From: Zygnema cylindricum
Lineage: Eukaryota; Streptophyta; Zygnematophyceae; Zygnematales; Zygnemataceae
DNA length: 64,000 bases
NCBI GenBank assembly: GCA_037447655.1
Contig: JBBHKE010000228.1
Location: forward strand, 1 to 64,000
Direction: 5' to 3'
Below the pieces are notes generated by a model. It saw only the letters and a program-made list of their open reading frames with translations. It was not told where the DNA came from and did no database searches. Numbering within the stretch: the stretch's first letter is position 1; every line of letters starts with the position of its first letter. Positions 3,365 through 48,445 of this stretch are shown here, in pieces. The position numbers were made by a program, and so were the translations under genes.

Positions 3365-3387
3365 CTCCCCTAAAGGTTTAGACTCAG

Positions 3388-11595: not shown

Positions 11596-12484
11596 TGAAA
11601 TTATCTAGTCTCCATTGACCCACAGAATGAGTAGCCTATGTAAAGCCTCTAAGATAATATTTGCCCCTTCTACTTTCCTGCTCAATAAGCGCCGCCCAGG
11701 CACACAAATATTCTAACCACTCTCAACCCTATGAGGATAAGACTCCCCTGAGTCAAACGCAAAAAGAATCACTGAATTTGCTCACCTGAGCATTAAGTTA
11801 TGGCTGGTCAAAGATGACCTTTATAGTTACAAGCTCTCTTAGAGAGAGAGGTACCTAAATTTTACTAAGTTTTGGTCTGCCTACTCACGACTACCTACTA
11901 CTAAACCCTAGTCCAATAGGAACACTATATAGTACAAGAAGGTACAATGGACGATGTACTTATTGTACGACCATTGTACGACAAGGTCTACAAGGTGACA
12001 CCTGTCAAATCGGAAGCCATGGTTCCTCTTCTCATCTTCTCCGGTATCAAATAATATGGCGCCACGTGGCACCGCGTGACGATATCTCCGTATGCCGCCA
12101 AAAGCTCACTTCGCGTGGCGGCTATAATGCAGGTCGTCCGATCAAAAAACATTTTACACGGTTCAGATTCGCGTACATGTAGGAATTGCTCCTTTTGGTT
12201 AGTCTGCTGTTAATTAGCTGTTGCGTTAATGTTTATATATTTATGAATCCCGTCACGTGTATCATTTCGTAACGCCTTAATGGTTAAGGCGTAAGGCTAT
12301 AGAAAATCTAGAGGTCGCACGTTCAAATCTAAACTTAGGCATCATTTTAGCTAAATACCCTTTACTTCAAAAACTGCCACTTTCTAAATATTGCGGCAGC
12401 CATGGCGGGCCTTTGATCCTCACTCTCTTTCTTTAAAGCAAAAGTAAAATAGAGAAGTGAACTGTTAATTACCTCTTTTCAACA
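11596..12484 (-). mobile_element. Element C: 3' LTR
   Basis: 889 bp, matching 16913-17799. On the minus strand it starts TGTTGAAAAGAGG and ends AATTTCA, so TG..CA termini are present. A TATAAAGG box (minus, about 11818-11825) marks the promoter. The LTR includes an ATGGAGAC sequence near its end, equivalent to the gag start codon in the 5' LTR. Confidence 0.9.
12272..12341 (+). other. tRNA-like module in element C 3' LTR, antisense to the element
   Basis: D-arm-like CCTTAATGGTTAAGGCG, a middle stretch, then the B-box-like GTTCAAATCT followed by ACTTAGGCA. It resembles the D-loop and T-loop of a Ser/Leu-class tRNA. The copy in the 5' LTR (17588-17659) keeps a better T-arm (CGCAGGTTCAAATCT). 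Confidence 0.55.
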
Positions 12485-15448: not shown

Positions 15449-16932
15449 TCATGTTTCAAACTCCTTTTCATCTAGGACAGCTGTTGAGACTAGGTTCTTG
15501 CTAAGTTGTGGAATGTAAAGAACGTCTGAGAGTGTTAGAATTGAGGCCTTTCCATCAACTAGAACCTTCAAGTCAACAGTTCCAACAAGACTTGTGGTTT
15601 CTACTCTACCATCTCCGTACTCTATCTCAACTGTTGGGATCTTTCTCAGTTTAGTGAACCACCGCTTAACTTTGCACATATGCATTGAAGCCCCTGAGTC
15701 TATGATCCACCCATCCTCGGGTGGATCCCTCTTACCTCCGAAAGCACACTTTTGTCTCCGTGGAATGTTGACATGCTTTTCAGTGTTTTTCGGATTGAGA
15801 AGAGGCTCCTCAAGCTCCTCTTCTGGTTCAGTTTTTCCTTCCACTTCCTCATCATGAACTTGAGTCAGGAAAGCCTTTTCTTTCCTCCATCCCTTGAGGT
15901 TCCTTGACCATCTTTCAGTCGAAGATCTGCAAGTTTGATACAATCTGCCATATAGTGTCCCGGTTTCTTGTAGAAGTGACATAATCCTCCTCGAGAAGTT
16001 CCTCTCCCCTGTCTATCAAATCTGCCACCTCCTTGTCCTCTTCCACCAAAGTTTCGATAGGGATCTTTCCCTCTCTCCTCATCACGCTTCCGCCAATCAG
16101 CTCCAGCAGATAATGCTTGAACACTTGGACTCCCTCTCCTAAGCTCTATGGTGCTATCTTTCACTTAAATCATTCCCCCTGTGTCATCCCAATTCCAATT
16201 GCTATCTCCTATGTCTTGCAATCGGTTAATGATATTCTCATACTCTTCAGGTAGTTTCATCATTAATGTGTTCACTCTTTGTCTCTCGGACCATGAGTTA
16301 CCTGCACTCTCTAACTCTCCAAATAATGCTCATAAATCATTACAATAATTATTCATACTTCCTCCTTTATAAGTATAAGCTGCAATCTTATTTTCGGCCA
16401 ACTGTTGTTGCTGCAATGATCCACTCTTATATTTGTTAATTAGTGATATCCAAATCTGAGATGAAGATTTGACATGCATAAGGGGAATGGCAATGCCCTT
16501 TGCTACACTTTTAAGAATTAAGAGCTTAGCAACCTTGTTTTTGTAGTTCCATTTTTCATACTCTGATCTTTCGGTCTGAACCCTTGTCGCCGTTTTTGGT
16601 GGTGCTGTTGCCGGTATCGCCTTCGGCAATGGTGTCATTTGAGTTGCAACTCCTTCCTCTTCTCCTTCTATGACAATCTCCTCTCTTTCCTCATCTTCAT
16701 CCTCGGTGATGGTGACAGCTGTTCTACCAACTGTAGAGGCATAGGTGCCAGAAAAACGTGTCCCTCCAAACCCAGATGGAGGTGGGCATCGAATTTGTCC
16801 AGACAATATGCCCCATAGATGATTCTCAAATATTTCTCCCTCCATCATCATTTCCCAACAAAGAAAGTCTGATCCATCAAATATGGGCACCCTAGAGGGT
16901 GGGCCCATAACCTGAAATTCTGTGGTCTCCAT
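15449..16932 (-). pseudogene. Element C: gag and protease
   Basis: Gag starts at ATG 16932, which lies inside the 5' LTR. It begins METTEFQVMGPPSRVPIF; codons 7-12 span the LTR end and primer-binding site. A helical Gag core follows (WNYKNKVAKLLILKSVAKG), then a stop near 16330, a basic NC region with a degenerate knuckle (CHFYKKPGHYMADC, second Cys lost), then the protease site WIIDSGASMHMC near 15700. The frame changes at about 15985 and 15449. Confidence 0.88.
16898..16912 (-). promoter_or_regulatory. Element C primer-binding site: half initiator-tRNA type
   Basis: GGTTATGGGCCCACC directly follows the LTR 3' end (AATTTCA). It is the exact complement of GGUGGGCCCAUAACC, the anticodon-arm segment of eukaryotic initiator tRNA-Met, not of the tRNA 3' end. 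Drosophila copia, yeast Ty5 and Volvox Osser are known to use such an internal tRNA fragment as primer. The site is also translated as part of Gag. Confidence 0.85.
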
Positions 16933-17799
16933 TGACCCACAGAATGAGCAGCCTATGTAAAGCCTCTAGGATAATATTTTCCCCTTCTACTTTCCCGCTG
17001 AATAAGCGCCGCCCAGGAAAACAAATATTCTGACCACTCTCACCCCTGTGAGGACAAGACTCCCCTGAGTCAACCGCAAAAAGAATCACTGAATTTGCTC
17101 ACCTGAGCATTAAGTTATGGCTGGTCAAAGATGACCTTTATAGTTACAAGATCTCTTAGAGAGAGAGGTACCTAAATTTTACTAAGTCTTGGTCTGCCTA
17201 CTCACGACTACCTACTACTAAACCCTAGTCCAATAGGAACACTATATAGTACAAGAAGGTACAATGGACGATGTACTTATTGTACGACCATTGTACAACA
17301 AGGTCTACAAGGTGACACCTGTCAAATCGGAAGCCATGCTTCCTCCTCTCATCTTCTCCGGTATCAAATAATGTGGCGCCACGTGGCACCGCGTGACGAT
17401 ATCTCCGTATGCCGCCAAAAGCTCACTTCGCGTGGCGGCTATAATGCCGGCCGTCCGATCAAAACATATTTTACACGGTTCAGATTCGCGTACATGCAGG
17501 AATTGCTCCTTTTGGTTAGTCTGCTGTTAATTAGCTGTTGCGTTAATGTTTATATATTTATGAATCCCGTCACGTGTATCGTTTCGTAACGCCTTAATGG
17601 TTAAGGCGTTAGGCTATAGAGAATCTAGAGGTCGCAGGTTCAAATCTAGACTTAGGCATCATTTTAGCAAAATACCCTTTACTTCAAAAACTGCCACTTT
17701 CTAAATATTGCGGCAGCCATGGCGCGCCTTTGATCCTCACTCTCTTTCTTTAAAGCAAAAGTAAAAGGGAAGTGAACTATTAATTACCTCTTTTCAATA
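16913..17799 (-). mobile_element. Element C: 5' LTR
   Basis: 887 bp; the minus strand reads TATTGAAAAGAGG (TG start mutated to TA) to AATTTCA. It carries a TATAAAG box at about 17136-17142 and two small perfect hairpins downstream of it: GACTC-CCCT-GAGTC (17058-17071) and GCTC-ACCT-GAGC (17097-17108). The gag ATG (16930-16932) lies 20 bases before the LTR end. Confidence 0.9.
17588..17659 (+). other. tRNA-like module in element C 5' LTR
   Basis: Matches 12272-12341 and is better preserved: TTAATGGTTAAGGCGTTAGG then CGCAGGTTCAAATCT. It lies about 140-210 bases inside the LTR from its start, on the strand opposite the element. Confidence 0.55.
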
Positions 17800-19835: not shown

Positions 19836-19845
19836 NNNNNNNNNN
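19836..19845. other. Assembly gap (10 N)
   Basis: Ten undefined bases join a B-like LTR piece to unrelated sequence (19846-19905) and then a C-like LTR piece. The join may be a scaffolding artefact, and the gap length is probably nominal. Confidence 0.95.
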
Positions 19846-19910: not shown

Positions 19911-20562
19911 TACTCTTAGAGAGAGGTACCTAAATATTACTAAGTCTTGGTCTGCCTACTCACGACTACCTACTACTAAACCCTAGTCTAATAGGAACAC
20001 TATATAGTACAAGAAGGTACAATGGGCGATGTACTTATTTTACGACCATTGTACGACAAGGTCTACAAGGTGACACTTGTCAAATCGGAAGCCATGGTTC
20101 CTCTTCCCATCTTCTCCGGTATCAAATAATGTGGCGCCACGTGATACCGCGTGACGCTATCTTCGTATGCCGCTAAAAGCTCACTTTGCGTGGCGGCTAT
20201 AATGCCGGCCGTCCGATCAAAACATGTTTTACACGGTTCAGATTCGCGTACATATGCATGAATTGCTCCTTTTGGTTAGTCTGCTGTTAATTAGCTGTTG
20301 CGTTAATGTTTATATATCTTTGAAACCCGTCACGTGTATCGTTTTGATAACGCCTAATTGGTTAAGACGTACGACTATATAGAGGTCTACAGACCGAGGT
20401 TCAAATCTGGACTTAGGCAACATTTTGGTAAAATATACTCTACTTCAAAATCTGCCACTTTCTAAATATGGCGGCAGCAATGGCGTGCCTTTGATCCTCA
20501 CTCTCTTTCTCTAAAGTAACACTAAAATAGAGAAGTGAACTATTAGTTACCTCTTTTCAACA
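19911..20562 (-). mobile_element. Element C-like LTR fragment
   Basis: Related to 17150-17799, starting at the CTCTTAGAGAGAGGTACC block and ending TTTTCAACA at 20562 (LTR start on the minus strand). It contains a diverged tRNA-like module at 20348-20419 with a good B-box (GAGGTTCAAATCTGG). The R-U5 part is missing. Confidence 0.8.
20348..20419 (+). other. tRNA-like module in the C-like LTR
   Basis: CCTAATTGGTTAAGACG and CCGAGGTTCAAATCTGG are D-arm-like and T-arm-like. It differs from the element C copies at many positions, yet the two arm motifs are kept. Confidence 0.5.
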
Positions 20563-20645
20563 CTCTAAAGACGTATAGGGTAAAAAGGGCCCGTAAATCC
20601 TTGGTGAAATACAAGTGTGCCTGAAAAGCACACGAGCTTGACAGC

Positions 20646-20929
20646 TGTCGAGCGTGCTTGAGTAACGTGAGGGAAGGGGCCACAGCCCGAAGTCGTCGAC
20701 ATCGGAGTCTTGCAAATAACCCCCAAATGCGAGTGCTTCCCAGAATGATGATCATGCCCAATGCTGCCCACATCCCTCCCATAGATATGCATGCAAAATA
20801 GGAGAGACGCTCGGACAAGGAATAGGGATGAGTGCAAAGGAAGGCGATAGTTATCCCCTCCCCCTTCGTTCCCACCCTCCTGGCTGGGGAAAGTGATTTG
20901 GGTCTCGGTAATCTGGCTGATATCCCAAT
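20646..20929 (-). mobile_element. Element F: 3' LTR
   Basis: Homologous to 26037-26303. It ends GCACGCTCGACA on the minus strand in both copies and is preceded by an AAGAGGGGGG purine tract. No TG start is visible. At about 280 bp it is short for Gypsy. The 20563-20645 stretch to its left has no recognisable content. Confidence 0.7.
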
Positions 20930-20971
20930 CCCCCCCCCTCTTAGTCAACCGTGACTAAGATATAAAAACAA

Positions 20972-21361
20972 TTACCCACTCCATTCGCAGTTCCCACAAA
21001 ACCAAGTGCTGGAGGGTAGAGGGTGTGGCTCCCTAGAGGAGGGGAGACAGGTTGAATGCCAACACTGACCACACTGATTGTAGACCAATATGTCGTGCAG
21101 CTGGGAGGACTGATTAGAAGTTGAGGAACAAAAAGGAGGATCAACAAAGTAAGTTAAGTGGAAAGTGGGTTTGTCTTCCAATCCCCGAAGATGGCAAGGG
21201 GCCACATTGATCTGATTCTCTTTAATTCTTCGACCATCCTTTCCCTCCAATGTAAGAACCCCTTTGTTGGAAACTTTGACCACTTTCAAAATTACTCTCC
21301 GGGAAGAAATATCAAGCGTGTCCTTCTTCTGTTGCATCCGATATACAAAGTCCCCTGGCAT
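20972..21361 (-). pseudogene. Element F: integrase C-terminus with degenerate PHD finger
   Basis: The SH3-like integrase tail (KKDTLDISSRRVILKVVKVS) is followed by a PHD-type zinc finger: the CGQCWHSTC and WFCGNCEW motifs are kept, but one of the first cysteine pair and the third cysteine are replaced (FCSSTS, VYNQC). The reading ends 15 bases past the last Cys and then meets the polypurine tract. Element G keeps the cysteines lost here. Confidence 0.8.
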
Positions 21362-21652
21362 AAATCATCGCTGTCGTGGCACAAAATTTCTGCTCCGACG
21401 TTGGGAATACCACAACTGATCTTGGTGTTGAGCCGCCTGCAAATTCCCCATGGGGAGAGGCATCTCTCGGTGGAATATCTTAGTTCTGCCGACGATCAGT
21501 TTTTCGACTGTTCCTTGGTCATCTATCTGTGGAAGGACCACCGCTTGGGCCGATGCAGCCCCGGGAAGGATGGGATGCCGTCTAAATAGAATGAAGTAAG
21601 GACTATAAGAGTGGAGAGAAGCTTGCCTCTTGAATCTATAACCCGTAGCAAT

Positions 21653-22411
21653 CTAAGGCACCCTTCTGTGCCACTCCCCCAAATCTTTTTCAACTGCATA
21701 TTTATGTAGTGACCGCTTTACTGTCTGTACGCACCTTTCGGCCAAGCCATCGGCTTGCGGGTGGTCACGGCTTGTCAGCCGATGGTAAACTAAACATTTT
21801 TCCAAGAGGTTGGAAAATTCTCTAGCATATTCGGAGCCTTGGTCTATTAAAACTTCCGCAGGCGCCCCGAATTGGGCTAAAACCCTTTGCAAAAAGGCAT
21901 CTGCAATTGCTTTGGACTCCATCCGTGGCTAAACCACGAACTCGATCCACTTAGAAAAATGTTCTATCATGACCAGCACGAAGCGGTTCCCTCGCCTGCT
22001 GGTAGGAAGAGGTCCCAAAAGATCCAAAGACCATCGATAAAACATTCCTCGGATAGGAAGCCAATGAAGCTTAGTCCCGCCCTTTTTGTCAAAAGCTGCC
22101 TTGACTCGATCACATGAGGAGCAAGTTTGCAAAATTCCGTTGACTTGGGTCCGCAACCCGTGCCACCAATAAGAGCATGTAACGAAGGAAGTTGTCCGTT
22201 TTTGCCCGAAGTGTCCACATTGCTGATGGAGATTGGAAATCAGGGTTTCTCGGTCTGAGAGGGGGGGAACCACTATCCTTGTGTCGTTTGACCATTTCCG
22301 ATGGAGAACACCTCTGTCCGAATTGTACCCCACCATTCGGGTCTGCACTCGAGATAATTGAATTCCAGTCAAGTGGGAAAGAGGTGCCCCTGCTGGATAG
22401 ATTGGAGGCAA
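21653..22411 (-). pseudogene. Element F: Gypsy integrase
   Basis: Two ORFs, 21929-22411 and 21653-21922, split by one stop near 21926 (SKWIEFVV then ESKAIADAF). It contains the HHCC region (NLHQQCGHFGQKR and CSSCDRVK), the first Asp in SLDLLGPLP, the second in IDQGSEYA and the Glu in ADGLAERCVQT. All three catalytic acids survive. Confidence 0.88.
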
Positions 22412-23505
22412 TCGCGATCGTTCCAGATATCCTTATGTTCGGCCCATATGGGCGCTTGCCCCTCCACGTCAGCGGAGAAAGTTGGCAATTCCCCCCTAGA
22501 TTGGGAAAGCCAGATGAAGGCGGAGGATGCACAAACCGATTTCAGGGTCCTCATCATGCGAGCCCCGATTAAATCCATGGTGGAGGGATCAAAATTCCGG
22601 CTGAGTCCGTCGGCATTGCCATGGATTTCCCCTGCCCGGTGAACATTGTCAAAATCATATTCCTGCAGGATAAGAACCCATCTGGCGAGTTTGCTAGTTA
22701 ATTTACTATTTTCCATGATCCATTTCAGGGGTTAGTGATCTGTAATCATGGTGAAATGGACCCCGTACAAATAAGGTTGGAAATGTTGGATTGGCCAAAC
22801 CGCTGCGAGTAGCTCTCCGTGGTAACTACTATAATTTCCCTCTGCTCTGTTGTTTCTCTAACTGGCGTAGGCCACTTCATATTCAGCTCCAACATCATGG
22901 ACTTGAGCCAAAACCGCTCCCAATCTAAACCTGCTCCAATCAGTGTAAAGGAGGAAAGGCCTCTGGTGATCAGGCATCGGGAGCACTGGGTGTTGCTTCA
23001 GAGCATCCTTCAAGAATTGGAAGGCGATCTGTTGTTCTTAGGCCCACTGCCATTCTTAGTCTTTCCGCAACAGCTGGTTGAGGGGCTAAGCGTGACTACT
23101 GAACTCGGGGATAACTCGCCGATAGTAGTTCGCCAGACCCAAAAAGGTGCGAAGGGCCGAGATGTCTTGCGGTTGGGGAAGAGCGTCAAGGGCTGCCACC
23201 TTAACCATTGTGAGACCCACAGTCTCGAGGGTCACCTCATGTCCAAGGTAGATGATCTACTGTACCCCAAAAATACCTTTTCCCGGGTGACATTTCAAGC
23301 CCGTTGCTTGGAGTGCCCGGAGAACAATCTGGACATGCTCCAGGTGTTCCTCAAAAGTCTTTGAGAATATGATTATGTCATCAATATAGCACCAGGCACA
23401 ATCAATTCCTCGGAGCGCTTTGTCCATTGGCCGTTGGAATTTGGCTGGTGCATTTTTGAGCTCGAATGTCATGTAAATCCATTCATAAAGTCTGAACCAA
23501 CTCAA
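22369..23505 (-). pseudogene. Element F: RT thumb and RNase H
   Basis: The ORF at 23257-23505 holds the RT palm end with the intact catalytic YIDD (CYIDDIIIFS) and FELKNAPAKFQR. Past it, frames alternate. RNase H is recognisable at 22369-22716 (ENSKLTSKLARWVLILQEYDF then HGNADGLSRN), the usual Gypsy RNase H end. Stops interrupt 22720-23250. Confidence 0.8.
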
Positions 23506-24174
23506 AATGAGGTTCTCTCCGTGTGCTTCGGTTCCATGGCAATCTGGTGGAAACTGTTCTTCATGTCCAGAGTGGAGTAGATAGTGGCGCCAGCAAGAGA
23601 GTCCAATATCTCTTCCGGGGTGGCAACGGATATCGGTGAGAGATGGTGGCAGTGTTCAGCATGCGATAATCTCCACACATCCGGAAATCTACAGTCTTCT
23701 CGGACGAGTCCTTCTTTGGAGGGAGAACTGTCGGGGAAGCGAACCCATGAAGTCCTCTGCTTTCCTGAACCAATCCGGCTTCCACCAAAGTCTGGACTTT
23801 TGCCGTAATGATTTCCTTCTCCTTGAAGCTGAGATGATATTGCTTCTGCGAAACAGTAGCCGTCTCGTTGATCAAATCGATTCAAAAAAGTGTTCCTTTG
23901 TAAATACTTACATCTGTTTCTAACCATGAGAACACATGTTTGTTTTTGGCCAACAGTTCAGAAAGCCGCGCCTTCCGCTAAGGGTCCAACTGCTCCTCAA
24001 GGTCCAATCCATTTTCCCCGGCTCAACGGCAGCGGAAGCTTTCGGCGGTGTACCATAGAGGTTAATGTTGAATTCCAACCCTATAGGTGGATCTGCCCCT
24101 ACCCTTTTGGTTTGGACACTACTGCTGACAACTTCCGCTAAGCTATTGCCATCTGAGCCGCCACCCCTCCCCAC
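23502..24174 (-). pseudogene. Element F: reverse transcriptase fingers/palm
   Basis: Fragments of the Gypsy RT N-terminal half: FRMCGDYRMLNTATISHRYPLP and YSTLDMKNSFHQIAMEPKHTE, in two overlapping frames (23561-23875 and 23502-23927), with the segment leading in from the methyltransferase at 23920-24174 (VEPGKMDWTL). At least two frameshifts are present. Confidence 0.82.
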
Positions 24175-24212
24175 TGAAAAACCTGCGGTGGTGAAATGTT
24201 AATTTTTCTTCT

Positions 24213-25424
24213 CTATTCTCTCCCCCCCTCAAGCTGCGAAGTTGCCTGCATCGCTAACAATTGAGGAGATTGAAGGTAAACAACCCTTGATTCCGGGGAC
24301 TTGAGACTCGAAAAGGCGAGTGCATGCTTAAGCACCCATGTGATCGAATTCATATCCATACTTTGCCCAATTATGCTGCACCTCTGAAGGTATGAAATAC
24401 CTGTTGCTGCCGTGGTGCCTTTATGAAATCCCATTGCTTCTTCCTGTTTTGGAATCGTCCGTGTTGTCTAGAGTCCCGCCTTACTGTCAAAAATCATTCT
24501 TGTTGCTCCTTTCCGATAAGCGTGACTGTGAGAAAAAGAGACCAAAGTCGGGAGTGCTTTCCGTGGGAATCCCGGTTTGTTGCAATGAAACAAAGGGGAG
24601 CTGTCGGGTTGAGTCACAGGGGTGGGCGCTCTACCTTCCCCAAGTATTTGCTGCACAAAATTTTGCGGGTCAGGGATTTACTTCTCCAAAAGTTGCCGGA
24701 GGACTGGAAGCGGGATCATATTGGTCCAATATGCCCTGACTCTGTGTGCCCGAGATCCCATCTGGGCGGCTTCGAAAACTAAGGAAGCTCCTAAAATTCG
24801 GGTTACATGATTCGAGCTGTCTACAACCTGTTTCCGTTTATCATCTCCCGGGTAGACATTTTCCAGGACGTACCCCACCGGTGTGTCCTGGAGCTGTTGA
24901 AGCCACGAGATTTATTCGATCAACCGGTAAAATGTTCCACTTTTGGGGTCTTGATGCCCTTTTCCTTGTCTTGCTAGGGAGTATCTATGACAAGGCCAGC
25001 CTGCCAACACCAAATCCACTCTTCCCAAACTGGCTAGATGGGTCGCCATGATGTTTTCTACATTTTGGGGAAGACTCTGGTGAGCTTTGGAGAAGGTAGA
25101 CACTGGAAGTTGTTCATGATGTAAGTGGTGAAGTTGGTGGAGGCGGTGTTCGGTGGCAGCCCGTGCGTTGAGGGATATCTCCACGGCTGTGTAGGACTCC
25201 ACCAGCTATCTTGTATTCAAAACAACTTCCAAATCGGAACTAATCCCCGAAAAGAGAGATAAAATATGGAGTCCGGAATAGGGGACTGTTAATGACACCA
25301 CTTGTCGATCGAACCCCACGTTATCAGACTTGGTTTTGGAAACATCAGACAGGGGTGTAGAAACGACTTCCTGTAATGATAAAGCCGAGAAAGTGTATTC
25401 CACTCCCCGCCGGAGTTTCGCCAC
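24213..25424 (-). pseudogene. Element F: C5 DNA methyltransferase domain inside the Gypsy polyprotein
   Basis: Three or four minus-strand pieces line up with cytosine-5 methyltransferase motifs in order: motif I LHILSLFSGISSDLE (about 25255), motif II YTAVEIS, motif IV with the catalytic Cys LVLAGWPCHRYSLA (about 24980-25015), motif VI YVLENVYPGDD, motif VIII GSRAHRVRAYWTN, a variable target-recognition region with TLVSFSHSHAYRKGA, motif IX MGFHKGT and motif X RCSIIGQSMDMNS. The enzyme class transfers a methyl group from SAM to C5 of cytosine. Stops after motifs I and IV kill this copy. It lies between protease and RT. Motif spacing resembles the DNMT3/DRM type more than DNMT1; subtype not certain. 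Confidence 0.88.
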
Positions 25425-25478
25425 CTGTAATAATATATTATTGTATTCCTCTTCCCACCGCTTGGATATGGGGAATTG

Positions 25479-26036
25479 CTAGATTTTTTCCGCTATATCT
25501 GTGGAACTGCCAAACAGTGCCGTTGGAGATGATGTAGTATACACCGGGTAACATCCTGACACCGAGACATTTGTCTTCCCCCGGCTCCATAAATCTAAAG
25601 GAACCACCACTTTGGTTCCTTCGTGATTTCCAGGGTCCCGAACGGTACATTGTTCTTTCCACACACTTAAACTCATATTTAGCCGGGTCCAAGTTGCCAT
25701 CCCTAACAGAATTTCAAATTTAGTCCCTTCAACCACTAAGAAGGGGAGTTCAATTTTCACCCTCTGGCATGCGTCATCTGAGAATTCGAATTCCATGGCT
25801 TTGATGATGCCATGGACAAGTTTGCTACCGCTGCTTACCGTGCTCAGGCGAATGTTACTCGAGCACATTTCTAGCCGGAGTTCTTCAGGCATTTTTTGTA
25901 AGGCGGAAGTGGTAATGAGGTTGGGGAGTGCTCCGATGTCGACCACAACGTCTTGGTATCTTCCGTACCCGTTGAGGTTGAAGTTACCAGTCCGGTTCAG
26001 TATAAGAGCCATTGACAAGGCTTTGTAGTTCCTATC
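25479..26036 (-). pseudogene. Element F: aspartic protease
   Basis: Gypsy-type protease region: LILNRTGNFNLNGYG, then the active-site position VVDIGALPNLI, where DTG has become DIG, then the flap/second half (FEILLGMATWTRLNMSL). The equivalent in element G keeps DTG. The upstream end is lost at the element G LTR. Confidence 0.85.
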
Positions 26037-26303
26037 TGTCGAGCGTGCCGGAAACATCGGAGGAGGGCCCACTGCCTGGGTAATTGGCATTGGAGTCCTG
26101 CAAACAACCTTCCCCAGAATGCGAATGCTCCCCACAACCATGCTTGTGCCCAATGATGCCCGCCTTGTTCTTGTGGGCATGTATGCAAAAGGTGGGGATG
26201 AGTGCTTGGGGAGGGCGAAAAGATATCCCCTCTCCCCTCTCCTTCCCCCTCCTGGACGAGGGAAAGGAGGGAACCCTTAGAGGTGGAGCCGGGTCCTTGA
26301 TTT
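26037..26303 (-). mobile_element. Element G: 3' LTR
   Basis: About 267 bp, similar to 20646-20929 and ending in the same CGCTCGACA. It abuts the protease of element F at 26036. It contains a CT/GA-rich block (26227-26275). Confidence 0.7.
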
Positions 26304-26326
26304 CCCCCCCTCTTAGTCAACTGTGA

Positions 26327-26870
26327 CTAAGACTTTGAATAATTACCCCGCCAATTCGCAGTTCCCGCAGAACCAGAGAGCAGGGGGTTTAGGACGAGGG
26401 TCTTAAGAGGAGGGGAGACAAGATTGATGCCAATACTTGTCGCATCGATCACATACGAGTACAAAATTTTGGGAAGAAGATGAGAGGCATTCGGAGGAAC
26501 ACAAAGGGGGATCAGCAAAATAGGTAAGGTGAAAAGTAGGTTCGTCTTCCAATCCCCAAAGGTGACAGGGATCCACATTGATATGATTTTCCTTGATCCT
26601 CCGTTCATCCTTCCCTTCAAGTGTCAAGACCCCATTATTGGAGACTTCCACTACTTTTAAAATCACCCTCCCCGCTGAAATGTCCAGAGTGTCCTTTTTT
26701 TGTTGCATCTGATACACGAAATCCTCGGGCAGAAATCGTCGTTGCCGCGGTACAAAATTCCCACTTCCGCGTTGCGAATACCAGAGTTGATCTCGGTGCT
26801 GAGCTGCTTGTAAATTCCGCATGGCCAGAGGCATTTCCCGGTGAAATACCTTGGCCTTGTCGGCAATCAA
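26327..26870 (-). pseudogene. Element G: integrase tail and PHD finger
   Basis: The SH3-like tail (KKDTLDISAGRVILKVVEVS) leads into a nearly complete C4-H-C3 zinc finger: CSSEC, then VLVCDRCDKYWHQSC, then WFCGNCELAG. CxxC, WHxxC and WFCxxC spacing is that of a PHD finger, a reader of histone H3 tails. A TAA stop falls in the loop before WFCGNC (near 26402). Gypsy integrases often end in a chromodomain; a PHD finger in that place is unusual. Confidence 0.85.
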
Positions 26871-26873
26871 TTT

Positions 26874-28370
26874 TTAAACCGTTCCCTTGCTGTCCATCGC
26901 CGGAAGGACTACTGCTTGGGTCGAGGCAGCGCCGGGGAGGATGGGATGGCGTCCGAACAAAATGAAATATGGGCTGTAGGAGTGGAAGGATGCTTGCCGG
27001 CTGAATCGGTACCCCATGGCGATCCAAGGCACCCTTCTATCCCACTCTCCTAGATCCTCTTCCACATCATATTTACGCAGTGACCGCTTCACTGTCTGCA
27101 CGCACCTTTCGGCCAAACCGTCGGCTTGTGGGTGGTCTCGGCTGGTAAGCCGGTGGTCTATCAAGCACAATTCCAACAAGTTGGAGAATTCTCCCGCAAA
27201 TTCGGAGCCCTGGTCGGTCAGAACTTCGGCTGGGGCCCCAAATTGGGAAAGCACTCTCTGCAAGAATGCGTCCGCAATCACCTTGGACTCCATCCTGGGT
27301 AAGACCACGAATTCGATCCACTTGGAAAAATGCTCTATCATTACCAATACAAAGCGGTTCCTTCGTCTGCTAGTGGGGAGAGGACCCAACAGATCCAGAG
27401 ACCACCGATAAAACATCCCCCTGATAGGAAGGGAATGAAGTTGAGCACCTCCCTTTTTGTCGAAAGCCGCTTTGACTTGGTCACATGAGGAACACGTCTG
27501 CACAATTCGGTTGACTTGGGTCCGCAACCCGTGCCACCTGTACGATCCTGCGACCAATGAGGTGGTCCGTTTCTGCCCAAAATGGCCACATTGCTGGTGA
27601 AGGTTAAAAATAAGAGTCTCCCTGTCGGCCGGGGGAGGAACCACTTTCCTCGTCCCATCTGCCCACTTCCGGATTAAGATGCCCCTTTCCCACTCGTATG
27701 CCGCCATTCGTGTTTGCACCCGAGATAACTGCAAGCCTGACAAATGCGGAAAAGGGAAACCTTGTTGGATAGATTCGAGTGCATCAGGATCGTTCCAAAT
27801 ATCTTTCCGTCCGACCCCTATTGGCACCTGCCCCTCCACGTCTGTAGAGAAAGTAGACATTCCCCCCCTAGATTGAGGAAGCCAAATAAAGGCAGAGGAA
27901 GCTCGAATGAGTCCCAAACTGATTTCATGATCCTCATCATGGCGGGCCCCGGTGGAATCTCTAGTGGAAGGGTCACGATTTCTGCTAAGTCCGTCCGCAT
28001 TCCCATGAATCTTTCCGGCCCGGTGGATTATGTCGAAGTCATTTTCCTGCAGTTTTAACACCCACCTGGCGAGTTTGCCAGTGAGCTTGCCGTTCTCCAT
28101 AATCCACTTGAGAGGCTGGTGATCCGTGATCAGAGTGAAATGGAATCCGTATAGGTATGGTCTGAAGTGTTGGATGGCCCATACCGCCTCCAGTAATTCC
28201 CCGTGATAGCTCCTGTAATTCCCCTCCGCTCGGTTATTACTCCTATTGGCGTAAACTACCACATATTCGTCACCAGCATCATCCAGTTGGGCTAAAACAA
28301 CTCCCAATCCAAACCGGCTCCAATCAGTGTAAAGGAGGAAGGGTCTTTGGTGATCAGGCATTCGAAGCAC
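26874..28370 (-). pseudogene. Element G: RNase H and integrase
   Basis: An uninterrupted 498-codon reading. RNase H: LLYTDWSRFGLGVVLAQ, AEGNYRSYHGELLEAVWAI and TDHQPLKWI, ending HGNADGLSRN. Integrase: zinc region LHQQCGHFGQKR/CSSCDQVK, SLDLLGPLP, TDQGSEFAGEF and ADGLAERCVQT, so the DDE triad is intact, then the C-terminal part FILFGRHPILPG. This is the best-kept piece of the family. It lacks the RT N-terminal to it through one stop at 28371-28400. Confidence 0.92.
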
Positions 28371-28400
28371 TGGGTGTTGCTTCAGGGAATCCTTGAGGAA

Positions 28401-29394
28401 CTAAAAGGCAATCTGTTGCTCCTCCGTCCACTGCCACTCCTGGTCTTTCCGCAGCAACTGGTTCAGAGGCTGAGCGTGGCTGCTAAATTCAGGGATGAAT
28501 CTTTGATAATGGTTAGCCAGGCCTAAAAATGTGCGGAGTGCAAAGATGTACTGAGGAGGGGGTAGGGCATCAAGGCCTGCATCTTTGACCATATGGGGAC
28601 CCACTGTCCCGGGTGTAACTTCGTGTCCCAAGTAAATGATTTTTTGCACCCCAAAAATTCCCTTACCCGGGTGACAATTCAAGCCCGCTGCTTGGAGAGC
28701 TCGGAGTACAATCTGTATATGCCCTAGGTGTTCCTCGAAGGTATTCGAGAAGATAATAACATCGTCGATACAGCATCGTGCACAGTCAATCCCCCGGAGT
28801 GCCTCGTCCATGGCACGTTGGAATTTGGCTGGCGCATTCTTCAGCCCGAATGGCATGTAGAGCCATTCATACAACCTAGACCCTGCCCAAAAAGCTGTCC
28901 TTTCTCGGTGCTTTGGCTCCATCACGATATGGTGGAACCCATTCTTCATGTCTAGTGTGGAGTAAATGGTGGCCCCGGCCAGCGAGTCAAAAATCTCTTC
29001 CGGGGTAGGCATTGGGTATCGGTCGGGTACAGTTGTCGTGTTAAGCATCCGGTAATCTCCACACATTCGAAAGTTTACCGTTTTCCTAGATGAGTCCTTC
29101 ATGGGTGGGAGAACGGTTGGAGACGCAAATCCATGGAGTCCGCTACTTTCTTGAACCAATCCTGCTTCTACAAGAGTTTGTACCTTTGCCGTGATAAACT
29201 CCTTTTCCTTGAAACTGAGAGGGTAGTGCTTCTGCCAAACAGTAGACGTCTCGTCTATTAAATCGATTCAAAAATGGGTTCCTTTGTAGATGCCTACGTC
29301 GGTATTTGACCAGGAGAACACTTGTTTGTTCTTCTCCAACAGGTCGAAGAGCTAGGCCTTTTGCTGAGGGTCCAACTGCTCCCCTAAGTTCCAA
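28401..29394 (-). pseudogene. Element G: reverse transcriptase
   Basis: The ORF at 28401-29159 covers fingers to thumb: RMCGDYRMLNTTTVPDRYPMP, YSTLDMKNGFHHI, MPFGLKNAPAKFQRAMDEAL, then the active site CIDDVIIFS (near 28755). The first position of Y-I-D-D is Cys here, while element F keeps Tyr. Thumb and connection (FLGLANHYQRFIPEFS) are normal. An upstream piece to 29394 joins the methyltransferase with frameshifts. Confidence 0.9.
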
Positions 29395-29599
29395 TCCATC
29401 TTTCCGGGTTCCACCGCTGCCCAGGCCTCCGGGGGTCTACCACAGCGAGAGATAACGAAATCCATCCCTACCTGCGGGTCTACCTCAGCTCCTCCCGTTA
29501 GAATACTGCTGCTAATAACTTCCGCTAAGTTGTCTCTCTCCGAGCCCCCGCTCCCCTCCACTGAGGAATCCCTTAATTTCGGTAAAATGCTAGGACTGG

Positions 29600-30850
29600 A
29601 AAATTTTGATGATAAAAACTGTTTTCTTGCCTCCCTTCCCCCCTCAAGCTGCAAGTGGGCCTGCACCGCTAACAACTTTGGAGCTTGAAGGTAACGAACC
29701 CCTCAATTGCGGAGACTGTAGGCTAGAGAAGGCCAAAGAATGTTTTATCACCCATGTTATTGCATTTAGATCCATGCTTTGTCCGAGTAGGCTGCACCTC
29801 TGGAGGTCTGATATACCTGGTGCCGCCGTACTGGCTAATTGGAATCCCATGGCTTGTTCTCGTTCTTCCACCGTTGGCGTTGTCCAAACTCCACTTTTGC
29901 TGTCAAATATCATTTCGCCGCTCCCTTTCGATACGCATGGCTATTAGGGAAGGAAACCAATGTTGGCAGTGCACGTGGTGGTGCTCTTGGTTGGTTGCAC
30001 TGGAAGAACGGAGGACGATCAGCCTTCGTTACGGGAGTAGCCATCCGCCCTGTCCCTAAATTTTTTTGCAGGGTAATCTGGGGATCTGTTTTGTGGTTCT
30101 GTAAGAGCTTGTTCAGGACTGACAGAGGTATCAAATTCGTCTAGTACGCCCGAACTCTGTGAGCCCTGGATCCCAGTTGCGCCGCATCGAAAACAAGTGG
30201 AGCTCCTAAAATCTACTTGACTTTATTTCAGCAATTTGCGACTTGTTTTCTCTTATCATCTCCCGGGTGGACATTGTCCTAAACGTAACCCACTGGTTGG
30301 TCTTGGGATTGCTGCAGCTGGGAAAGTAATTTGATCATCTGGAAAAAGGTTCGACTTCTGCTATCTTGATGTCCCTCGCCTTTCCCAGCTAGAGAGTATC
30401 CTTGACATGGCCATCCTGCAATCACCAAATCTTTCCGCTCCAGCATAGCGAGATGTGGCTTAAGGATATTGTCTATATTTTGCGGGACACTTCGGTGAGA
30501 TCTGCAGATGGCTGATACCGAAAGTTGCTGGGGATACTATTGGTGGAGTTGTTGGAGTCGGTATTCACTGACGGCCCGAGCATCCGGTGAAATTTCCACG
30601 GCCACATATGACTCCACTTTATGCCGAACTTTCAAGACAGCTTCGAGGTCCGAGCTAATTCCAGAAAATAATGATAATATCCAGAGTCCAGAATCCGGGA
30701 TAGATAATGACACAACTTGTCGATTGAATTTTTGATTTTCGGGCGGAACTTCCGAAGGTTCCAACCGAGGTTCTTTTTCCTTTACAAAAACAGCTGTCAA
30801 GGATTTGTCCACTTCCCGCCGAAGTTTTGTTATTTGTAATAATCTGTTCT
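29600..30850 (-). pseudogene. Element G: C5 DNA methyltransferase domain
   Basis: Motifs in order on the minus strand: I WILSLFSGISSDLEAVL (about 30640), II YVAVEISPDA, IV with catalytic Cys LVIAGWPCQGYSLAGKG (about 30385-30430), VI as a damaged DNVHPGDD after a stop, VIII GSRAHRVRAY, target-recognition region TLVSFPNSHAYRKGAAK, IX AMGFQLAST, X RCSLLGQSMDLNAITWV. PCQGYS is the canonical motif IV. Several stops lie between motifs II and IV and around VI, so it is inactive. Agreement with element F at the protein level shows the domain belonged to the family ancestor. Confidence 0.88.
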
Positions 30851-30887
30851 GGTATCCTTCTTCCCACCGCTTGGAAATAGGGAATTG

Positions 30888-31460
30888 CTATATTATGTCT
30901 GCGATATCGGTGGCGCTGGCGAGCAATTCCGTGGGTATATGAGTGGCATAGACGGGATAACATCCTGCGACGGGAGCATTATCTTTCCCCCTATTCCATA
31001 GATCCAGGGGAACCACCACCTTGATTCTTTCTAGATCCTCAGGATCCCGAACAGTAAACTGTTCCTTCCATACACTTAATCCCATATTCACCCTTGTCCA
31101 GGTGGCCATTCCCAATAAAATCTCAAACACCTTACCTTCCACCACCGAAAGGGAAGTTAAATTCAGACCTTTTGACCTGCGTCGTCGGCGAACTCTATTA
31201 ACATAGCTTTGATTATTCCGTGTACCGGTTGGCTCCCACTGCTAACAATACTCAGACAGATGTCACTGGGGAAGATTTCCGGTCGGAGTTCTTCAGGCAT
31301 TTGCTGCAGAGCCGATGTGGTGATTAGATTTGGGAGTGCTCCTGTATCGACCACTGCATCTTGATAGCCGCCGTATCCGCTGAGTTTGAAATTCCCCGTC
31401 CGGTTGAGAATTAGAGCCACAGATAACGTTTTGTAGTCCCTATCCATCATAGGGGTCTTT
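30888..31460 (-). pseudogene. Element G: aspartic protease
   Basis: Two ORFs (31163-31450, 30888-31145) broken by one frameshift near 31155. Active site VVDTGALPNLITTSALQ is intact at about 31340, and FEILLGMATWTRVNMGLSVW is the C-terminal half. The protease matures the polyprotein. It sits between gag and the methyltransferase. Confidence 0.87.
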
Positions 31461-33601
31461 GGGTCTGTTGACCAAAAAACGGATCTGGCATGATCGGCCC
31501 GGTGTTTCTCCCCTTCGAATGGATTTCCTCTCCGAGGGCCTGGATGAGAACTTCCTCCGGCAAGTTATGGGAAGAGGCCAGTGTTTTCACGTGAGTGAGA
31601 GCGTAGGGCATTAGATGCCTTACTAACATCACTGCTGGTTTGGAGGAAGGAGGTAGAATTTTTGGAGATGAACTAGAGGAATCTGTTAGTTCCACCGGTT
31701 GATTCTTCTCCCCCCCCTTGCTTCCTCAATTTCTTGGTCGGATTCTGGCGCGGGCGGCGTTTCTAGCGTGTTATCCTCTTATCTTTCCGCCAAATATTTT
31801 TCGAACCAGTCTTGGTTGTCACGCGTCTCTTCCTCCTTTGCTCGTTCCTCCATCTTCCTTGTTTTCGTTGTCCTGTAATTTTCGAATCCCGGAGGCAGTT
31901 TCGTTGCGGCTGGTGGAGGTGGGTTTGTAGATTTTATTCTGAGACCTATGTTGTCGTTCAGGATGACGGCCCTGGGGGTGAAGGACAAAGGTCCAGTAGC
32001 GTTCCTGTTGTGGTCTCGGGGAGCGAGCTTTTGCATGTCCCTTCGCTGCGCCAAGGTTGAGTTGCGGAGCTGCCTGCGATTGTCCCCCACACCGAGATTC
32101 CATGCTCCAAAAAGGAAGGTCTGTGCGTGATGTGCTTTTGGAGGTTCCATGTCCCATCCCATGACCTCATCATCGTCTTCGCCCGCTGCGGTTTCCAGTT
32201 CAAGCTCTGCCAGCTTCTGTAGTAATTCCTGTTTTCTCCGGTGGAGTTTCTGGGCGGCCGTCAGAGCGCACGTCCTGGAGGGCGATCCTAATCCCAGCGC
32301 TGCTAATTCTGCAGCCATGGCTGCCATTTGCTGGCTCCGCTGTTGCATGATGACCTCCGGGGTTAATCAGGCTTGACATGTTGGCTGTCGTTCTGGGTTC
32401 TCCGGGGTGCGGCGTCCCCAAGGGTAAAGAAGCTGCAGCGGGAGAGGATTCACGGCAGTTTCACCTTCTCCGGTAAACTGTGCATATTACATCATCTCTT
32501 TAGGAACTCCATTGTTTCGGAAGCACTGCCCTTCCTTGTGACCCATGAAACCGCAAGCCTCACACTTGGATCCCTCGGTAGTATATTTGCCCCTCAATTC
32601 ATTGGAGATTTGCGCGTCATCAAATTTTGGAAGTTTTATTTGTCGCAACTGGGCTTGCGACATCTTTGCAGTCTCAGATCGTGGCGTCGGCCGGTAATTC
32701 TCTTTGTTCACCAGTGTTTTATCGTCTGACCCTCCTCCTTGCTTCCTTTCTTGCCGCCTCTTTGTCCTTTCAACTCTCTCCTTTTCCCATTCCTTGTGCT
32801 TAAGAGCTAATTCCGGTTTGAGCTTCCGGGGGCATCGCTTCCATCCATGACTGTTTCTTGACAGTTTAAACAGTTATAGAGGAAGACACAGTCATCGGCC
32901 CCCATGGCAGGTTCGGATCCGCTATCCACCACATGTTTCCACTTGAGCTTCCGCAAGGCTAAGAGTTCGGCCGACTCTTCATTTTCGGGAGGCATTTCTC
33001 CGGCAAATCCTGCAAAGTTCCCTCAGGTTTTTCCGGTTACCGCTTTTTCCTAGGCCTCTCGGTGGACAAAGTGATCATAAAGCTTCATTGCGGCCAGAGA
33101 GATTTCTTTGGCGGTTGGATTGACGTCCTGGATGGCCTGTCCCGCAATCCAATTATCGAGGGCGGCCTGCCCCGTCGGTCCGATCGAATTTCGGACGGCG
33201 ATGAAATATTTGGTTGCTATTGCCAGAAGATCAATAGTTGAGAGTTTGGTCTTTTGACAAAGGCTGGACAATCTGTTAAAAAGAGTCTGGAGTGTTTCAC
33301 TCTTTTGGCAACAGAATTCCGTGAATTCCTTGATAGCAGATTCATTCCTCTCGGTGTAAAGGAGTCTCCAGGCATTCAAAAGAGTGGTACAAGGGGTTGG
33401 GTCTGCAACCATCCAAATGGCTGCCCTGGCCTCCTGGATGGCCTGAAGCTGAGCGACATAGGCTCCTCCTTGTGCTTGCAGTTTCATGTCCTCTGTGAAG
33501 AGGGCCGTGACAGGAGCGGCTGCAACAACAGCCAAGTTTGCTTCCGCCTGCAAGACTGCCTCATCAAGGATAGGGTCTGAAATTTTGATGCTAGGAGCCA
33601 T
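31447..33601 (-). pseudogene. Element G: gag
   Basis: The first ORF (33050-33601, 183 codons, MAPSIKISDPILDEAVLQ start) is alpha-helical and has the Gag-type stretch AWRLLYTERNESAIKEFTEF. Downstream lies a CCHC zinc knuckle CEACGFMGHKEGQC (32487-32711), a nucleocapsid hallmark. A Gln/Ala-rich ORF of 189 codons (31779-32348) and an 82-codon piece lead to the protease. Frame breaks at about 33040, 32800, 32480, 32380 and 31770. Confidence 0.75.
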
Positions 33602-33856
33602 CAGAAGAGGTTGTCGTTCCTTTTAATCTGCCAAAGCGCCCCCAACAAGATATTTCACCATCATGGGGAAAAGCGTGGTCTCGAAGTCATCAGGAATGGC
33701 TCTGCCCCTTTATTTGTTGATTTCAGATTGGGTGAACGACTTCCACAGCAATTCGAAATTAGAGAAAGCGATTCTCAAGCTATCTCATGTAAAGATCCTT
33801 GCCTCCCCCATTTCTTTTTCCTCCTCTGCAAGGTTGGTGAACTGAGAAGAGGATGG

Positions 33857-35915
33857 TCAGGTTGGGCTAACAAACTGAACCGGTGAAATTACCCCTGGAT
33901 CTGCGTCGTCTGGCTCGGGCCTTCCTCCTTCTCTGGTAGAAGGAGCTTCCTTGGGAAAAGCTGCCCGAAGTCTTGCTCCAATATGCCCAAGAGAGGCCCG
34001 TTCCTCTCGGCGAACCGTTTCCACCGAGGGAATGTTGAGAAGACGTGTATCTTCCGGGAGTTGGCCCTTGGGAAACGAGGAGCTTATCACCTTGGGAAAA
34101 GCTGCCTGAAGTCCTGCTCCTCTATACCCAGGAGAGGCTTGTTCCTCCCGGCGAACTGTTTCCACCGTGGGAATGTGGAGAATAGGTTTAGTCACCGGTG
34201 GTCCTTGAGGGATTGGTGGAGAAAAGGATGGAGATGACCGAGGACTACAAGGGAAAGGTGTGTGTCTCCGTGTACGCCTTCTAGAGGTTTCTGGTGGAGG
34301 AGTTCCTTCGCTGGAATCTGGAGAACGTCGGTGAGGAGGTGAGTAGGCAGGAACATCGTACTTGTAGGGTATGACAGGTGGTCCCGGTGACCCACGGAGT
34401 GCAGCGGACGGAGAAACAGAAGGCGAAGGAGAGGATGCCGAAGGTGGAGATGGAGGAGGAGTGGAAAGCCCAAGGGAGATGTGTTGTCTTTGGTCGGGTT
34501 GTAATAATACCACGGCCTCCACAGTTGAAGACACAGCCATTGAGACAACAGTAGGACGCTCAGTGGAGGCGGCCGCAACGCTATCCTGTGAATCTGTACC
34601 CATCCCCTGTTTGTTAGGTCCTGTTGTTTCCCCCCCTTCCCGCTGAAAAGGAGACTCCGGTCTAAGTTCCGAAGAAATCCTGTGAGCTGGCATCTCCGTA
34701 GGGGTTGTCTGCACTGTATGTTGTCTCCAAGTCGAGGGACCTGTGTCTCTAAGAGGAGCTACTTGTCCACTAAGGATCCCTCCTGATATTCGTGTAGCCT
34801 CCCTTATGAGGAGCAATTCTTGTTCGAGGGCCCTCTTCCTCTATTCTTTAAGAGCTTCCCAATCGATAGTGACGGGTCCAGCCCCCGCCGTTGCCTGACT
34901 CTGGGATCGTAAGAAGTCAACCAGTTTTTGTGTACTGCTCACCACCCTTGAGAGATCCGCAATCCCCAAACCCGCTACCTCGGGATTGGTGGGTCTCGAA
35001 CGCCACAACCCCTCAAATGGTCGAATCGCCGGAGCAGAAGGAGACTTTGAGCTAGGAGAGGTGGAATCGAAAGGGAAGAACGATTCCGCTTTAGGTCAGG
35101 GAGCGAACCTGCCTTTGGCGTCCCAATGATTGAACCTGTACCCCTTCTTTGGCTCGGGTAACCCTCGCTTGCTGGTCCCTTCCCCGTCCCATGTCCGAAT
35201 GACCGCCCCGCCGTGAGCCGGCCTGCTAGTTGCGGTGTCTTGAGATGGGGTGGGTTGCTGGTAGGAAGTTGATGGTCCTCCCGGTTGCTCCGATACGGAG
35301 GTTGGGGAGCCACTCTCGGATGAACTACTGAGTATCTCCACTACACCTCCCACTGGGCGTACCACTCTGGGTTGATTTGACCTGGCTATCCTCTACACCA
35401 ACTCCTTTCTTAACCTTTAACTCATGGAGATCATGAAGGGCTAAGATTTCTTTGCGACCCGACCGGTTAGGATCGGTCAGGATCTTAGGATCAATGTACA
35501 TTTCTGCTATCGGTGCCTTAGATCGGGTATAGCGACCGACCTCGGGAAAGTGACCAGGGACCGCTTCCTTGTGGGCCAGCCCCTTTCTACGGCTTTTAGG
35601 GGATAGGGGCGGCCTCTCCGCCTTCTCCAAAACCCTAGCTCTGGCTGACTTGGACAACGTTGGGAAATTCTCGAGGGAAAAGACAAGTGGAGGTGGAGGA
35701 GAGGGTCTCCCCTCTGGGTGCGTAGGAGGAGTGTCGACCGCAACCCCCCGGGGCATCTCTCCCTGAAGAAACCGCTCTATGTGTACAGGTGAGCAAAAGG
35801 GGGGTGCTCCCTCGGGCACCTGTGACTCTTCCTCCTGGGCCACCGCTTCCTCCCTCTCCTGCTCGTCCGATCTGACACTCGGAAGATCCTTATCCTGGAC
35901 TTCTCCTCCCCCCAA
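33857..35915 (-). pseudogene. Element G: proline-rich ORF upstream of gag
   Basis: A long minus-strand reading in three pieces (35325-35915, 34975-35365, 33857-34816), with a frameshift near 35340 and a stop near 34843, ending about 250 bases before gag. It is rich in Pro, Ser and Arg, with a helical patch (DLSRVVSSTQKLVDFLRSQ) and two tandem units containing VETVRREE.ASxG and AFPK (33900-34170). I recognise no domain. It could be a 5' extension of Gag, an accessory protein or a captured host piece. Confidence 0.6.
33900..34170 (-). repeat. Two tandem coding units in the upstream ORF of element G
   Basis: Two units of roughly 40 codons, each with IPTVETVRREE or IPSVETVRREE, then ASPGYRGAG or ASLGHIGAR, then AAFPK. 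The DNA of both units is similar (GAAAAGCTGCC..GAAG and TTTCCACCG.GGGAATGT blocks), so the duplication is recent relative to the rest. Confidence 0.75.

Positions 35916-48373: not shown

Positions 48374-48375
<2 letters not shown>

Positions 48376-48443
<68 letters not shown>
48376..48443. repeat. (CT)n microsatellite
   Basis: About 32 uninterrupted CT units upstream of the NLR-like gene. The preceding 47670-48375 holds one 75-codon plus-strand ORF (48122-48349) without a recognised family; it might be an upstream exon, but nothing supports this beyond an acceptor-like TTTCTTTTACAG at 48201-48212. Confidence 0.9.

Positions 48444-48445
<2 letters not shown>

Follow-up and report, generated by a model that had tools for sequence, protein, structure and literature searches.

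Ty3/gypsy retrotransposons of Zygnema cylindricum carry a putative Dnmt3-like methyltransferase within Pol

DNA methylation is a standard weapon against transposons, and elements that carry a DNA methyltransferase (DNMT) of their own reverse the usual picture. That retrotransposons can do so is established by KnitGypsy-Dnmt3 of Klebsormidium nitens, the one family that provides a streptophyte precedent in the part of the literature available to us (PMC5890265). According to the same source, the Dnmt3 domains of SymbioDIRS elements methylate CG in yeast. To judge from the accessible portions of two later texts, retrotransposon-embedded DNMT3 is touched on in passing in a 2025 survey (PMC12344493), and according to a 2019 essay land plants lack transposons that encode a methylase (PMC6338049). 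Here we describe a DNMT-bearing Ty3/gypsy family found in a 64,000-nucleotide stretch of DNA from the streptophyte alga Zygnema cylindricum (GCA_037447655.1, contig JBBHKE010000228.1, positions 1 to 64,000; hereafter the window). The initial annotation of this stretch had proposed such a family and regarded the principle as already known, which agrees with the report on KnitGypsy-Dnmt3 (PMC5890265).

Two broken elements and their intact relatives

The window, which forms the start of contig C173 in the 352.8-Mb host assembly that we searched, contains two elements, F (20645-26036) and G (26036-31444), arranged head to tail and sharing 72.3% identity over 5466 columns. Both encode, all on the minus strand, a protease, a DNMT, a reverse transcriptase (RT), RNase H, an integrase and a PHD-type zinc finger, in this order. 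In both copies the DNMT is thus flanked by the element's own protease and RT in the same orientation, as initially annotated. The succession of RT, RNase H and DDE integrase within one Pol identifies the elements as Ty3/gypsy. The integrase is of the rve type, and no tyrosine recombinase was matched in the scanned proteins.

The methyltransferase domains were located by a six-frame scan of the window with a profile of relatives, made of rows from outside the window but drawn from an alignment that also contained F and G. On the minus strand it matched F at 25277-24315 (334 bits) and G at 30695-29913 (285 bits) and 29916-29734 (57 bits), the domain of G being split into two pieces by a frameshift. 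Beyond these three pieces the scan gave no DNMT match at E < 1, and the reversed window gave zero matches, which rules out chance motif matches. With stops written as X, Pfam PF00145 recognized F (24.4 bits, E 2.4e-5) as well as G (36.6 bits, E 4.5e-9), both above its cut-off of 22 bits. On direct reading, C5-methyltransferase motifs occur in the right order in both copies: I (LSLFSG), IV (GWPC), VI (ENV in F, DNV in G), VIII (AHRVR), IX (ALPTLV) and X (GQSMD), in what we take to be the usual numbering. The domain is interrupted by four stops in F and by five stops and one frameshift in G; the two elements are broken, dead members of a DNMT-bearing Ty3/gypsy family. That the family itself is real can be considered virtually certain.

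We next compared 28 aligned DNMT rows, window copies included. The catalytic Cys motif is present in 27 of them, the exception (P0001) beginning after the motif, and the A(H/Y)RxR pattern is absent solely from P0143. Motif VI reads ENV, ENT, ENA, ENS or ENI, in addition to the DNV of G. Unlike in DRM, the motif order is unpermuted. Among solved structures, the sequence profile placed DNMT3 closest, far above DNMT2, and all top structural matches of the predicted fold were DNMT3 (as ranked in a second alignment pass over Foldseek's candidates). Profile and predicted fold, rather than a tree, therefore indicate that the window DNMT is Dnmt3-like.

The features of the two elements are listed below.

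31894..35813, minus strand: gag and 5' region of G, decayed; matches the gag region of host element C1374 over 3938 bases (73.6% identical)
32490-32873, minus strand: gag open reading frame of G with a CCHC zinc knuckle; E 7.7e-11 to P0127, a gag-protease-DNMT-RT protein (search of 5 proteins)
30891..31444, minus strand: protease region of G; nucleotide homology to the F protease
30888..30890, minus strand: in-frame UAG, then CAAUUC, between gag-protease and DNMT-Pol of G; UAG and hexamer shared with F and with 26 of 30 fetched host loci
29734..30695, minus strand: C5-cytosine methyltransferase domain of G, five stops and one frameshift; profile 285 + 57 bits, PF00145 4.5e-9
28404..29267, minus strand: reverse transcriptase of G; PF00078 5.4e-25, 92% amino acid identity to host element L033
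26877..28400, minus strand: RNase H and integrase of G, a single open frame; PF17917 1e-30, PF17921 4.9e-13, PF00665 2.3e-11
26346..26873, minus strand: integrase tail and PHD-type zinc finger of G; PF00628 E 3.1e-4, 21.2 bits, below the cut-off of 24; Cys-His pattern in the translation
25641..26042, minus strand: protease of F; PF13650 E 0.0084, below cut-off; residues 79-212 of P0124 recognized by the local protease profile
25479..25481, minus strand: in-frame UAG, then CAAUUC, of F; same site in G and host loci
24315..25277, minus strand: C5-cytosine methyltransferase domain of F, four stops; profile 334 bits, PF00145 2.4e-5
23260..23957, minus strand: reverse transcriptase of F, frame broken; open pieces, profile E 5.4e-13 on piece 23564-23881
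21656..22731, minus strand: RNase H and integrase of F, fragmented; RNase H 1.8e-21, integrase 8.8e-44 and 1.2e-38
20975..21364, minus strand: integrase tail and PHD-type zinc finger of F; PF00628 E 1.0e-4, 22.7 bits, below the cut-off of 24
20566..20644, minus strand: probable start of the 3' long terminal repeat (LTR) of F, cut by a copia LTR; reads TGTCAAGCTCGTGTGC

At the seam between the elements (26036), the end of the internal part of G meets the start of the protease part of F. Apparently, the 3' LTR of G and the 5' LTR and gag of F have been lost there. G has its own gag upstream; F begins at its protease, with no gag seen, and no LTR pair of either element was found in the window. 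The remaining gag pieces of G gave weak or no matches to the five proteins searched, and Pfam detected no domain in its protease pieces; the local protease profile applied to F includes this copy itself. For comparison with the probable LTR start of F (TGTCAAGCTCGTGTGC), the LTR of host element C1374 begins TGTCAAGCGCGTGTGC; the window was not among the hits of a BLAST search with the C1374 LTR. A copia-type repeat (19913-20565) adjoins the probable LTR of F. The G-tract behind the PHD finger was considered as a polypurine tract and rejected, as the C1374 copy shows the position of the LTR start. An Rfam scan of the window gave no match.

The initial annotation had spoken of two independent copies. 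As to location this does not hold, F and G being adjacent, but as to descent it does. Their DNMT domains differ at 0.205 of non-synonymous (pN) and 0.716 of synonymous (pS) sites over 250 codons, the latter being near saturation, which means that F and G diverged as working elements. Ratios of non-synonymous to synonymous rates (dN/dS), rough in absolute terms at such saturation, are 0.10 for RNase H, 0.11 and 0.04 for the integrase pieces, 0.04 for the integrase tail with the PHD finger and 0.15 for the protease; for RT the saturated synonymous sites made the ratio not computable. At unsaturated sites, in six pairs among host loci L022, L026, L028 and L032, the DNMT gave dN/dS of 0.13 to 0.36. 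These values indicate that the DNMT domain has been under purifying selection, like RNase H and integrase. The exact adjoining of F and G and the missing gag of F might instead suggest that a single dead copy was duplicated in tandem, or that a host gene was inserted by chance. However, the near-saturated synonymous sites reject the duplication, the excess of pS over pN and the many other copies with the same layout argue against both possibilities, and the probability left to them is minute.

How common is the family in the host genome? A PF00145 search produced 782 first-look candidates, the best 123 of which were scored, all above the cut-off. A search with the DNMT of P0125 produced 1758, and again the best 123 were scored, all at E <= 1e-84, with matches that mostly span the near-full domain and, by the table of this search, 30 domains without an internal stop. 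Both counts are lower bounds, so that the host genome contains at least 123 DNMT domains; three elements discussed here (C1344, C1407 and C449) are in the PF00145 list and not in that of the P0125 search. When the 30 best-scoring loci were fetched with 1.5-kb flanks, the protease-DNMT-RT layout seen in the window recurred in 25 of them, with protease only in four and neither neighbor in one (the protease profile here includes F). Neither outcome that could have refuted the initial annotation occurred: relatives match C5-methyltransferases strongly, and the domain is present in intact genome copies.

The best preserved copy, C1344, has an open frame of 2395 amino acids encoding gag (with two zinc knuckles), protease, DNMT, RT, RNase H, integrase and PHD finger. 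Its LTRs are simple direct repeats of 931 bp with 0 mismatches. LTRs of C1374 are 97.8% identical over 1186 positions and those of C449 92.9% over 693; none were found for C1407, and C544 showed only repeats at 70-75%. The family is therefore large and partly young, with at least one very recent insertion (C1344), and is either still alive or was so until recently. No target-site duplication was recognized at C1344. Further direct repeats at 83-92% flank it on both sides (L036:3190-3950, L037:1747-2509), which suggests that it inserted into an older repeat. Elsewhere in the host genome (C514), a PF00145 match in a 100-residue open frame (L027:1501-1749) is unmatched by the profile of the retrotransposon DNMTs and may represent a host DNMT exon.

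A conserved UAG before the enzyme

In the subfamily represented in the window, an in-frame UAG separates gag-protease from DNMT-Pol. UAG-CAA-UUC was read in F, G, L021, L022, L023, L026, L028 and L032, and UAG-CAA-UUG in L035 (L026 and L033 are the same place; an additional stop lies in the protease tail of L032). It is in such individually examined loci that the shared frame across the UAG was read. Among the 30 fetched loci, some of which are the same places as those read individually, UAG-CAA-UUC is found in 26, of which 24 were recognized by protein letters and two more, L056 and L069, by a direct string match. In the 24 loci, CAA and UUC are invariant, even though CAG and UUU are synonymous and nearby synonymous positions vary; the hexamer evidence is that of the protein-letter set only, as the column table was selected on CAAUU (with a wrong-strand match in L056). 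Recent common ancestry cannot account for this identity, because the proportion of synonymous DNMT sites that differ between F and the host copies L022, L026, L028 and L032 is 0.75-0.79. The stop that immediately precedes the DNMT in F and G is conserved and is not a sign of decay. The idea that the host reads UAG as a sense codon was rejected, given frames of 1520, 1525 and 2395 amino acids without an in-frame stop triplet.

The context of this stop resembles the type I leaky stop of tobacco mosaic virus (TMV) and other plant viruses, for which UAG-CARYYA is described as the signal essential for TMV read-through in the accessible text of PMC2754532. As in those viruses, UAG-CAA-UUN stands in frame before the replication enzymes. 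A full CARYYA match is present in L011, an intact relative from outside the host assembly: UAG-CAA-UCA ends its gag-protease-DNMT frame, which continues in frame into RT, RNase H, integrase and PHD finger. Only two of the 638 stop triplets of L011 (either strand, any frame) precede CARYYA, and one of the two is the gag-protease-DNMT stop. The DNMT thus lies just behind the stop in the window subfamily and just before it in L011.

These features make translational read-through at the UAG probable, yet several observations count against it. Unlike the type I signal, the window-family hexamer CAAUUC agrees with CARYYA at five of six positions, its last base being C and not A. Four of the 30 fetched loci are without UAG-CAAUUC; L063 has UAA-CAAUUU, and nothing was found in L059, L067 and L070. 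In the open frames of the C1344 subfamily, P0125 and P0127 there is no stop between protease or DNMT and RT, and consequently read-through is not required by all members. The imperfect hexamer and the subfamilies lacking the stop would equally fit a UAG that is a plain terminator of Gag-protease, with Pol and the DNMT expressed through re-initiation or from another RNA. We consider this rather unlikely, as it leaves unexplained why gag-protease and DNMT-Pol share a frame across the UAG and why CAA and UUC do not vary in the 24 loci.

A second position in Pol and the spread of the module

The protein collection contained 24 further DNMT matches. Retroelement domains are present in 23 of them, and the remaining one (P0128) groups with these. 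No stand-alone cellular DNMT could be recognized among the 24, for which candidates had to share exact words and fit a length range. None bears a K. nitens name, most being unnamed and exact sharing of a five-residue word being a precondition; K. nitens integrase proteins were found, one of them (P0020) with a PHD domain. Six matches have the protease-DNMT-RT layout of the window (layout A): P0125, P0126, P0127 and P0131 by domain order, P0129 by a protease match and P0128 by tree alone. In the other 18 (layout B), the DNMT lies between RNase H and integrase, or the protein is a fragment showing one such neighbor; the integrase search added three more fragments compatible with layout B. One layout-B protein (P0132, from EukProt) is named like a transcript, and the polyproteins P0133 and P0134 carry a precomputed G-patch domain (PF01585). 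The DNMT family therefore occupies a second site in the Pol of relatives, and its occurrence at two positions suggests that the module travels as a single unit.

DNMT trees, which omit P0131, P0148, P0074 and rows shorter than 200 amino acids (P0002, P0003, P0068, P0116), unite layout A and P0001 (a row assigned to neither layout) in a clade (95/93 and 97/93). Integrase trees were built from near-complete integrases of DNMT-bearing rows, named rows and rows to P0030; the other rows of the 120 listed were excluded, including P0068, P0074 and P0116 (DNMT fragments before an integrase), and the last tree is also without P0011, P0142, P0143, P0145 and P0147. There, A-type rows occur at three places in a 28-row clade (98/99) that also contains Klebsormidium, Closterium, Calypogeia and Riccia elements, and layout B falls outside (98/99). 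The window group joins P0125 (100/100), C1344 lies near Calypogeia (82/80), and L011 groups with Riccia and Calypogeia (100/99). The named relatives are represented by protein fragments. According to these placements, three lineages of streptophyte-type elements share the protease-DNMT-RT layout. By themselves, the same placements would make the host probably a streptophyte alga or an early land plant. Some tree results run counter to this simple picture: the Closterium sister position, 100/100 on RT, RNase H and integrase together, was not recovered on integrase alone; layout-B rows did not form one clade in another tree; and the split between the layouts is weak in the DNMT trees (71/61, 78/59), with P0136, a layout-B protein, on the A side.

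L011 is a circular-looking contig of 9285 bp, with 127 identical bases at both ends, that was binned with a cyanobacterium (AVDCRST_MAG81). It is an intact eukaryotic DNMT-gypsy element, present as contamination or possibly as a one-LTR circle. The other nine genome-contig matches are prokaryotic records at 22-35% identity, and viral contigs gave only distant matches (27-48% identity in the best segment).

The initial annotation had also linked the DNMT to a PHD finger. The finger is indeed present, and in relatives it exceeds the Pfam cut-off (L011, 4.3e-10; P0130, 2.6e-7). A special partnership with the DNMT had to be rejected: a loose C4HC3 pattern occurs in 47 of 54 proteins that have a complete integrase and at least 190 amino acids behind it, so the finger is general to the integrase lineage.

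In the rest of the window, positions 1-20565 hold several Ty1/copia elements, with RVT_2 in three pieces, and LTR-like pairs (11596-12482 / 16913-17797 at 95.8%; 1-503 / 3203-3705 at 92%). Ten N at 19836-19845 mark an assembly gap. Much of 48000-64000 is simple repeat, yielding long low-complexity open frames, two of which were tested and had no Pfam match.

A possible role in cDNA methylation and comparison with known systems

Taken as a whole, the following account of the family appears moderately likely: F and G are dead copies of a DNMT-bearing gypsy family that uses UAG read-through, methylates its own cDNA and is targeted by its PHD finger. The polyprotein would run gag-protease-(UAG)-DNMT-RT-RNase H-integrase-PHD finger. 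Most ribosomes would terminate at the UAG and produce Gag-protease, and a minority would read through into Pol, with the DNMT as its first domain. Each packaged RT would in this way travel with a DNMT, whether or not the protease frees the latter. The enzyme could then methylate new double-stranded cDNA, either within the particle or once the cDNA has reached the nucleus, and the copy would thereby enter the host resembling resident methylated DNA. Finally, the PHD finger on the integrase may steer insertion to particular histone marks. CpG ratios (0.67 in F and 0.70 in G, no lower than 0.59 in the copia stretch) are uninformative on self-methylation.

Two facts weigh against the enzymatic part of this account. 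The DNMT reads PCQ where DNMT3A has PCN, and the yeast test in which SymbioDIRS domains methylated CG detected no methylation by KnitGypsy-Dnmt3, a result that its authors call inconclusive in the available text (PMC5890265). Nevertheless, DNA is likely the substrate. DNMT2-type C5 methyltransferases use tRNA as a substrate, so an enzyme that methylates element RNA or primer tRNA is conceivable. An RNA role has indeed been suggested for SymbioLINE DNMTs in the portion of the same report at hand (PMC5890265), but with DNMT3 far above DNMT2 in the profile comparison and no other class among the top fold matches, such an activity seems quite improbable here. That the element's own cDNA is the main target has about an even chance. 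The DNMT might instead act mainly in trans, on host chromatin or other elements near its targets, shaping the methylome, with self-methylation as a side effect. The high copy number (best 123 of 1758 first-look candidates scored) would suit this, as would Symbiodinium, which combines many DNMT elements with near-total CG methylation (PMC5890265, as far as accessible). Yet both host subfamilies seen have retained the domain in cis, with selection comparable to that acting on RNase H and integrase, and the same source describes the methylome of K. nitens, which has such elements, as much like that of land plants (PMC5890265); an action mainly in trans is accordingly unlikely.

A broader proposal, which we put forward tentatively and at somewhat less than even odds, is that the Dnmt3-like DNMT is no single chance capture but an ancient component, maintained by selection, of a gypsy lineage found across streptophytes, that read-through ties it to packaging, that it methylates cDNA before integration, that the module has moved within Pol at least once and that liverwort relatives may carry it. 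The position of L011 beside liverwort elements makes the absence from land plants, as stated in the seen part of PMC6338049, worth rechecking. The conserved UAG offers a testable account of enzyme dosage. Moreover, the family has at least 123 copies; as some are intact and the LTRs of one are identical, its expression, the content of its particles and the methylation state of fresh insertions could be measured.

How does the family relate to known systems? Chromoviruses are Ty3/gypsy elements with an integrase chromodomain. Like them, the window family has a histone-reader domain behind the integrase; unlike them, it has a PHD-type finger and, in addition, a DNMT. It shares with SymbioDIRS-Dnmt3 and SymbioLINE-Dnmt, in so far as the source at hand describes them, a retrotransposon-borne DNMT and two domain orders within Pol, but those elements use a tyrosine recombinase or are LINEs, whereas the window family consists of LTR elements with a DDE integrase (PMC5890265). 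The closest counterpart is KnitGypsy-Dnmt3, likewise a Dnmt3-like domain in the Pol frame of a streptophyte-alga Ty3/gypsy element under purifying selection (PMC5890265). The available parts of that paper describe its repeats as DIRS-like, in contrast to the two simple direct LTRs of C1344, and on this ground we do not file the family as a KnitGypsy member. For KnitGypsy they mention no leaky stop, second Pol site or PHD finger, 'PHD' being absent from the main text (PMC5890265); nor do the titles and abstract openings of the literature, partially covered, report any of these in DNMT-bearing gypsy elements. Thus, the principle is shared with KnitGypsy, and what is added to it here is the conserved UAG-CAA-UUC of the window's subfamily, the second Pol site in relatives and the recurrence of the protease-DNMT-RT layout in three lineages.

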